NCBI GenBank assembly: GCA_030673895.1
Contig: JAUTCR010000058.1
Span: forward strand, 1-64,000
Direction of reading: 5' to 3'
From: Verrucomicrobiota bacterium JB023
GTDB lineage: Bacteria; Verrucomicrobiota; Verrucomicrobiia; Verrucomicrobiales; Akkermansiaceae
DNA: 64,000 nt
Shown piece after piece: positions 49,283 to 51,463 of the stretch (the first letter of the stretch is position 1; each line of letters opens with the position of its first letter). The position numbers were made by a program, and so were the translations under genes. The notes under the pieces were generated by a model. That model saw only the letters and a program-made list of their open reading frames with translations, did not search any database and was not told the DNA's origin.

Positions 49283-50014
49283 TTAGGAATCGCGGCGTCC
49301 TCCTCCGCGATTGTCACCACCACGATTATCGCGGCGGCCACCGGGGCGTCGGTTGTCGCGACGATTACCACCCGGGTTCTGCTTGATCTTGTCCTCGCGC
49401 TTGTTCAACCAGCACTTGATACCGATGATCCCGTAAACAGTGCTCGCTTCTGCGAAACCATAGTCAATAGGGACACGAAGGGTCTGAAGAGGCACCTTAC
49501 CCTGGCGATACCATTCGGCACGGGCAATGTCTGCACCACCAAGACGACCGGCGCAGCGGATCCGGATACCATCAGCACCGAAGTCCATCGCTGTCTGGAC
49601 AGCACGCTTCATCGCCCGGCGGAAGCTAATCCGGCGCTCAAGCTGAACGGCGACGTTCTCGCAAATCAGCTGGGCATCCAGCTCAGGCTGGCGAATCTCG
49701 ACGATATCAATCTTCACTTGAGCTCCGTTGCAGATCTTCGTGATGTCGCGGGTCATGAGTTCGATCTCAGAGCCACGCTTACCAATGACAAGACCAGGGC
49801 GGGAGGTGTGAAGGGTGACTCGCACGCTATTCCAAGCGCGCTCGATGACCACCTTGGACAGCGCCGCAAATTGCAGTCGGTTGCTCAGGTATCTCCGGAC
49901 AGCAAGGTCCTCGTGAAGCTTCTTGGTGTAGTCCTCTCCGCTGGCATACCACTTGGAGCGCCAGTCGCGGTTGAAGGCGAGTCGGAATCCTACTGGGTTG
50001 ACTTTCTGTCCCAT
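49283..50014 (-). CDS. rpsC: 30S ribosomal protein S3 with RG/RR-rich C-terminal tail
   Basis: MGQKVNPVGFRLAFNRDWRSKWYA; SRPGLVIGKRGSEIELM KH motif; tail NPGGNRRDNRRPGGRRDNRGGDNRGGGRRDS. Confidence 0.97.
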   Translation of the reverse strand: MGQKVNPVGFRLAFNRDWRSKWYASGEDYTKKLHEDLAVRRYLSNRLQFAALSKVVIERAWNSVRVTLHTSRPGLVIGKRGSEIELMTRDITKICNGAQVKIDIVEIRQPELDAQLICENVAVQLERRISFRRAMKRAVQTAMDFGADGIRIRCAGRLGGADIARAEWYRQGKVPLQTLRVPIDYGFAEASTVYGIIGIKCWLNKREDKIKQNPGGNRRDNRRPGGRRDNRGGDNRGGGRRDS

Positions 50015-50056: not shown

Positions 50057-50737
50057 TTAGCCGTTCCCTTTTTCATCAATAAGGGTCTTGGCTTGCTCGA
50101 GCCAGTTGTCTCGCTCGATGCGTCCTTTGAAGGAGAGAAGCATGTCGAAGGCAGCAATGTTCTCGGGGGTCCAATCAACAATCTGCTGATAAGTGTAGAC
50201 ACCGAAGCCATTAAGCTTTTCCTCAAGCGCAGGTCCAACGCCACTGATTTTCTTCAGGTCGTCGACTTCAGCAGGAGCCTCCGAGTAGACGGTGCCCAAC
50301 TGCGCTGGGTCAACTTCCGGTGTCTCGGTCTCAGAGACGGGAGCCGTCTTCTTAGGAGCTGCTTTTTTAGCTGCCTTGCGAGATTTTGGAGCCTTCTCCT
50401 CAACCTCAGCTTCAGAAAGTGTGATGTAGATGTGGCTGGTGCGCTTGCGAATTGCTGAAGCGGAACCGCGAGCGCGAGGCTTGAAGCGACGGAACATTGG
50501 TCCTTCACAAATGCTGGCTTCCTTTACCACGAGGGTGTCTCCGGGCAGATCGTGGTTGTTTTCAGCATTGGCCAGAGCGCTCTTCAATGTCTTGCCGATC
50601 AAGAAGGCCGCCTTCTTCGGGGTGTAATTCAGCGTGTCCAGAGCATCGGAAACCGGCATGCCTTGGATTGCGCGGGCAACGTCCCGGGCTTTCTTAGCCG
50701 AGACTCTCGCGTATTTGGTTATCGAACGGACTTCCAT
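50057..50737 (-). CDS. rplV: 50S ribosomal protein L22 with C-terminal helix-hairpin-helix-like domain
   Basis: YARVSAKKARDVARAIQGMPVSDALDTLNYTPKKAA L22 core; C-terminal DDLKKISGVGPALEEKLNGFGVYTYQQIVDWTPENIAAFDMLLSFKGRIERDNWLEQAKTL. Confidence 0.95.
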   Translation of the reverse strand: MEVRSITKYARVSAKKARDVARAIQGMPVSDALDTLNYTPKKAAFLIGKTLKSALANAENNHDLPGDTLVVKEASICEGPMFRRFKPRARGSASAIRKRTSHIYITLSEAEVEEKAPKSRKAAKKAAPKKTAPVSETETPEVDPAQLGTVYSEAPAEVDDLKKISGVGPALEEKLNGFGVYTYQQIVDWTPENIAAFDMLLSFKGRIERDNWLEQAKTLIDEKGNG

Positions 50738-50752
50738 GACTTTTTGACTTCG

Positions 50753-51463
50753 TTAATTGCGTTTGAATGAAACCCGGTCGCCTATCTGGACAGGGTTTTC
50801 TTGGTTTTCCAAATTGGTGATGAGTAGAGCGCTCACATCAGCGCGAGTCGATGCGACGAGCGCATCGGCCACTTTCATTTCATTTCGTAGGACTTCGAAA
50901 GGCATTCCAATCACAGCGGATTCCTTTTCACCCACATTGACAACGACGATCGAACCGCCGGCTTCGCTATTGACACTGACCACTCGGGCCATTTGAAGAT
51001 TCCCGGTGAGACGATCCTTGGCTGGCTTCTCGCGCAATCCGACAGCGATGTCGAGATCGCGGAGGCGGGCCTCCAGGTTCGCCCTGGCATCCGGGTCTGC
51101 CGCAATTGCGGTGGCGAGATAATTTTTTGCGTCAGAGGATAGAGCCAGCGCAGCGTCCTCGACCTCCTTCAGTCGGCGAGTGAGAACTTCGTAGTCCGCA
51201 ACTGCTGTGACCAGGCGGTCGCTCTGACCATCGAGAACAGATGCCCCCATGGCTTCGAGCCGAAGCTTGATCTCCTCGAGACGCTCATTTGCTTCGCTCT
51301 CCCGCTTGGTTGTCTCCACCAGGCTTTGTTTGAGAATCTCCACCTGGCTACGGAGCGAGGCGAGCTCGACAGACTCAGGTCCATGAGGATGTCCGCACAG
51401 CGTCCCACCGCCGACCCCGAAGATGAGGGCGGTCAGGAGCTGATAATGACGGACAGTCTTCAT
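50753..51463 (-). CDS. Unknown secreted coiled-coil protein inserted in the S10 operon
   Basis: 236 aa; N-terminal signal-like MKTVRHYQLLTALIFGVGGGTLCG, long coiled coil, C-terminal beta-rich RVVSVNSEAGGSIVVVNVGEKESAVIGMPFEVLR; 15-bp and 29-bp gaps to the flanking r-protein genes. Confidence 0.8.
   Translation of the reverse strand: MKTVRHYQLLTALIFGVGGGTLCGHPHGPESVELASLRSQVEILKQSLVETTKRESEANERLEEIKLRLEAMGASVLDGQSDRLVTAVADYEVLTRRLKEVEDAALALSSDAKNYLATAIAADPDARANLEARLRDLDIAVGLREKPAKDRLTGNLQMARVVSVNSEAGGSIVVVNVGEKESAVIGMPFEVLRNEMKVADALVASTRADVSALLITNLENQENPVQIGDRVSFKRN

Follow-up and report, generated by a model that had tools for sequence, protein, structure and literature searches.

The module studied here, of helix-hairpin-helix (HhH) type, has homologs on several bacterial proteins, of which PhaH is the only one with a reported function. 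In a review, the HhH domain of PhaH is described as binding DNA non-specifically, with PHB granules being held along the nucleoid (PMC13052382). The PhasinPhaH model has its cut-off passed in Caulobacter vibrioides, and COG3743 receives a single mention in the open-licence literature searched, in one paper on PHA production. HhH tails on the ribosomal proteins S2 and L21 are already catalogued, and the kind of fusion is therefore known, because NCBIfam holds S2 and L21 models that include the tail. Protein-O of the Dinoroseobacter shibae RC-LH1 complex also matches the module (PDB 8yy9 chain O, E 2.7e-14; 9wqv chain a, 8.6e-17); its domain sits on a flexible linker, is invisible in the 8yy9 cryo-EM map, and has a function that was called obscure (PMC12079452). 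The fusion to L22 appears to be undescribed. Searches of open-licence papers returned nothing on L22 with HhH or on a Verrucomicrobial ribosome extension, and the same literature yielded no account of L22, L15, S3, or L19 as hosts, of copying within genomes, or of the charge shift reported below.

The L22 gene of the window and its C-terminal tail

The window, a 64,000-nucleotide stretch of a contig from Verrucomicrobiota bacterium JB023, carries rplV on the minus strand (50057..50737) as a single ORF with an ATG start and an unbroken reading frame, encoding a 226-aa L22 with a C-terminal HhH module (Pfam L22, 5.7e-35). Its core (residues 1-107, 50417..50737, minus strand) has a net charge of +11 and is covered by Pfam L22 over residues 7-107 and by TIGR01044 at 119.4 bits, above the curated cut-off of 73.65; this score and the place of the gene in an S10 operon ordered S19 - extra gene - L22 - S3 - L16 - L29 - S17 both identify the protein as bacterial ribosomal protein L22 (uL22). 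In the AlphaFold2 model, the core has a pLDDT mostly of ~90, with values of 72-73 around residues 81-100. It is followed by a Lys/Ala/Pro/Glu-rich linker (residues 108-146, 50300..50416, minus strand, net charge 0), which congener comparison and a pLDDT below 50 across residues 112-142 mark as disordered.

The remaining 80 aa form the tail, a mobile C-terminal unit made of a lead-in and an HhH module. The lead-in, LGTVYSEAPAE (residues 147-157, 50267..50299, minus strand), contains a pattern, LGxVYxxAP, that accompanies the module and was absent from the original prediction; it is conserved in L22 fusions and in the L15, S3, NuoJ, and membrane-protein hosts of the order. The module itself (residues 158-219, 62 aa, 50081..50266, minus strand, net charge -3) is intact, matches profile A2 at 1.3e-37, and leaves 7 residues to the C-terminus. 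It includes the hairpin GVGP (residues 166-169, 50231..50242, minus strand), invariant in A3 and degenerate (GLTK) in G023, and a family signature, FKGRIERDNW (residues 203-212, 50102..50131, minus strand), which stays strongly conserved among the hosts and in both phyla. The tail thus sits at the very C-terminal end, behind a low-complexity linker, the same placement as in PhaH-, L21-, and NuoE-type modules. Moderately confident within the full-length L22 model, it gives a pLDDT of 84 and a pTM of 0.73 with short helices when modelled alone, and these predicted helices are consistent with an HhH/RadA-NTD-like fold.

Domain searches place the tail more firmly in NCBIfam than in Pfam. Pfam HHH_5 (PF14520) matches residues 159-196 at 5.4e-5 (24.0-24.4 bits, below the 27-bit gathering cut-off) and covers the first half only (profile 2-39 of 57); the GxG hairpin between two helices is present, with GVGP at 166-169 and a helix at 169-177 in the model. 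The NCBIfam matches are to NuoE (PRK12373, 5.2e-25), L21 (PRK12278, 8.4e-25), S2 (PRK12311, 2.6e-16), and PhasinPhaH (NF045508, 1e-20 to 5.2e-20, profile positions 131-232), and the L22 tail alone gives a whole-module match to these L21, NuoE, PhaH, and S2 models at 1e-16 to 1e-25. At 75.7 bits against a 250-bit cut-off, and over the C-terminal part only, L22 falls outside the PhaH equivalog.

The original prediction, of an L22 fused to an HhH-type C-terminal domain, is thereby borne out by the Pfam and NCBIfam matches and by the architecture of congeners, its coordinates (50060-50266) coincide exactly with residues 158-226, and the PRK12278 match confirms its statement that the module is known from extended L21. 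It was also right that the module is not standard on L22, and missed that the trait recurs in one bacterial order and belongs to a mobile family on many hosts. A frameshift or assembly artefact was rejected, since the three congeneric genomes share the L22 architecture, as do dozens of other genomes. The suggestion that L21 of this genome might also carry the module was rejected by a genome search: a profile search found one L22 and one module copy, which lies on L22, and the L21 is therefore without it.

Other features of the operon lie beside this gene. Between S19 and L22, on the minus strand (50753-51463), is a 236-aa protein with an apparent N-terminal hydrophobic segment and a coiled coil, which had no Pfam match and whose homologs adjoin L22 in most of the families sampled from the order. 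The S3 of the window (49283-50014, minus strand) ends in an Arg/Gly/Asp/Asn-rich C-terminal tail (GGNRRDNRRPGGRRDNRGGDNRGGGRRDS), and in the relative G166 (L175) S3 carries an HhH module in place of such a tail.

Distribution, hosts, and mobility of the module

The three congeners have an identical architecture, with 77% identity across the full L22. Between G000 and these congeners, lead-in and module are 86% identical, the L22 core 78-81%, and the linker ~50% with indels, so that the module is about as conserved as the core; dN lies far below dS where dS is measurable, the ratio being mostly unmeasurable because synonymous sites are nearly saturated. In the four genomes of the genus, the L22 copy is the only one at E<=1e-5. 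Across a 290-genome sample of the order Verrucomicrobiales, a full-length profile detected the module on ~47 of 275 L22s (46 genomes matched to the end of the model plus a split match in G008, with G023 and its degenerate hairpin among those counted). Its presence is patchy and varies even inside genera, requiring at least 15 changes on an L22 tree of poor resolution, and the module is therefore dispensable. A spread across the whole phylum was rejected, since in a sample of 291 genomes from the phylum only six were positive, every one of them from this order. One draft genome (G197) contains two differing L22 genes with the module (C123 and C108; L130 and L292), the core of one being identical to the G056 core; this genome is probably a mixed bin.

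L22 is one of many hosts. In Verrucomicrobiales, these further include L15, S3, NuoJ, many small proteins bearing a single hydrophobic helix at the N-terminus, and coiled-coil proteins with two to four module copies. Giant tandem arrays also occur as ORFs of 1200-2904 aa with 7-23 copies (L228, at G031:C66:1500-11500; G052:C3; L229; L230). The L15 fusion was found in three g9 genomes, each of which also has the L22 fusion, and the L15 and L22 modules of the same genome share 89-98% protein identity, which points to recent copying between the genes; at the DNA level, strong similarity starts close to the lead-in, runs to the stop codon, and drops off beyond these limits. In Alphaproteobacteria, the hosts are NuoE, L21, S2, L19, phasin-like proteins, RC-LH1 protein-O, ABC-transporter ATPases, and membrane proteins, and the module was present in 13 of 143 class-wide genomes and in 139 of 150 genomes of the order around Methyloligella. 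The ATPases L368-L371 of that order, of peptide-transporter type, carry it at the C-terminus, and the L19 of Methyloligella halotolerans (L246) has a diverged acidic copy (net -8) with a long acidic tail behind it. Ribosomal hosts nearly always have the module placed 2-13 residues from their C-terminus.

A tree of 155 modules, built on only 62 columns, separates Verrucomicrobial from alphaproteobacterial branches with a support of 90, bar one long-branch row. The fusions to L22, L15, and S3 and those to S2, L21, and L19 are therefore separate events, with at least two origins. A phage origin was rejected, no match being present among 50,697 phage records, and a plasmid search gave matches only on seven large replicons of Hyphomicrobiales.

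Charge of ribosome-borne modules and possible functions

Ribosomal copies of the module are more acidic than others. The mean charge in Verrucomicrobiales is -5.0 on ribosomal hosts (n=53) versus +0.7 on other hosts (n=74), and in Alphaproteobacteria -2.9 (n=35) versus -0.9 (n=59); the rows compared are related, so that p-values overstate the case, and the shift is present on both branches. Within genomes, the ribosomal copy was the more acidic by 22 to 0 with one tie in Verrucomicrobiales and by 12 to 2 with one tie in Alphaproteobacteria (an earlier count pooling both groups gave 29 to 0, one tie). The main positions involved are the residue before the hairpin glycine, mostly S in ribosomal copies and often K/R elsewhere, and module positions 16, 27, 42, and 51; at one position ribosomal copies carry E where others have K/R. 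Acidity is not exclusive to ribosomes, since the copies on NuoJ show it as well. PhaH orthologs were sought for the same comparison, and none scored above the cut-off in the search.

Because many of the hosts belong to large abundant assemblies, we propose, with a probability of roughly one half, that the tail serves as a flexible docking head at the surface of the ribosome, anchoring or concentrating ribosomes at a shared cell component. The HhH domain and its lead-in, carried on a flexible linker of ~40 aa, would act as a mobile C-terminal docking module, and with this ending on L22 each ribosome of the organism would carry a small acidic head that moves freely and extends outward from the solvent side, close to the exit port. 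We infer that the module is exposed and flexible there and docks to some partner, holding or concentrating ribosomes at a common component as has been proposed for PHB granules; its acidity may serve to keep the head off rRNA. No binding partner for the module was found in this analysis. By the precedent of PhaH, the nucleoid would be the leading candidate, and the partner is perhaps DNA itself, a tentative assignment drawn by analogy. Nucleic-acid binding by the tail is conceivable because the homologous HhH domain of PhaH reportedly binds DNA; the S and E substitutions, together with the acidity, weaken the case for simple DNA binding, and the acidic charge of the L22 tail would argue weakly against non-specific binding.

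The main rival to a nucleoid partner is protein or self-association, in which the module, like SAM or NusA-AR domains, would bind its own copies or a specific protein, and so cluster ribosomes or link them to module-bearing membrane proteins. This is possible, with the odds against it: module proteins that are membrane-anchored or form tandem arrays are also encoded in many genomes of the order, and the same genomes hold acidic ribosomal copies beside neutral or basic membrane copies, but in the genus of the window, where all four genomes have the L22 copy only, a module-bearing partner is unneeded. Among weak matches in a PDB fold search with the module, the SAM and LEAFY oligomerisation domains and NusA favour association, although none is significant, the search having returned no match at E<0.001.

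The original prediction suggested that an extra domain resembling nucleic-acid binders could sit near the nascent-chain exit; on this reading the tail would be a nucleic-acid-binding extension acting at the exit port, on rRNA or the nascent chain. The L22 globular domain does adjoin that port, and HhH folds are often nucleic-acid binders. The C-termini of module-bearing ribosomal proteins, however, sit at different ribosome sites, and the module also occurs on S2, S3, L15, L19, and L21 and on non-ribosomal complexes; the greater acidity of the ribosomal copies speaks against the tail adding a surface that binds rRNA or the nascent chain, and a linker so long and variable gives no hint of a fixed site. 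A role specific to the exit port is thus unsupported and in our estimate improbable, and the tail looks like a general docking tag rather than an exit-tunnel device. We are equally doubtful that it is a tolerated passenger, spread between gene 3' ends by recombination to little benefit and acidic merely so as not to stick to rRNA. The patchy distribution, the intragenomic copying, and the degenerate copy in G023 would fit such a passenger, but a module as conserved as the L22 core, with a signature kept across hosts and phyla and recurrently retained on essential proteins, would not.

To our knowledge, bacterial ribosomes are usually thought to be without lineage-specific tethering domains. 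A bolder extension of the docking head, which we regard as speculative and rather unlikely, is that one mobile HhH module was independently recruited in two phyla as a ribosome-localisation tag, selected to be acidic so as to avoid rRNA, and tethers ribosomes and other tagged complexes to a shared structure. If so, L22, L15, and S3 in Verrucomicrobiales and S2, L21, and L19 in Alphaproteobacteria would all be ribosome tags. That one module recurs on six ribosomal proteins of two phyla, as well as on phasins, complex I, and a subunit of a photosystem, suggests that large assemblies share a general addressing system, and ribosome positioning or DNA coupling would be directly testable through one C-terminal domain.

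Comparison with described systems

Among described proteins, NCBIfam PRK12279, the '50S ribosomal protein L22/unknown domain fusion protein', is likewise an L22 with an extra C-terminal part. The extension is a different one, as the match extends over L22 and the linker alone (profile 1-168 of 311) and the module alone did not match PRK12279. Protein-O shares the C-terminal module with L22 and differs in being a membrane-anchored photosystem subunit. The alphaproteobacterial L21 and S2 fusions (PRK12278, PRK12311) have the same module, C-terminal place, style of linker, and a ribosomal host, whereas the ribosomal proteins are other ones and their modules lie on a branch apart from the Verrucomicrobial modules. 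PhaH has a granule-surface protein as its host, and L22 is without the phasin part; the two are alike in that Caulobacter crescentus PhaH (NF045508) bears a homologous C-terminal module after a linker and, in the review, is proposed to be a nucleoid tether for a large body (PMC13052382).
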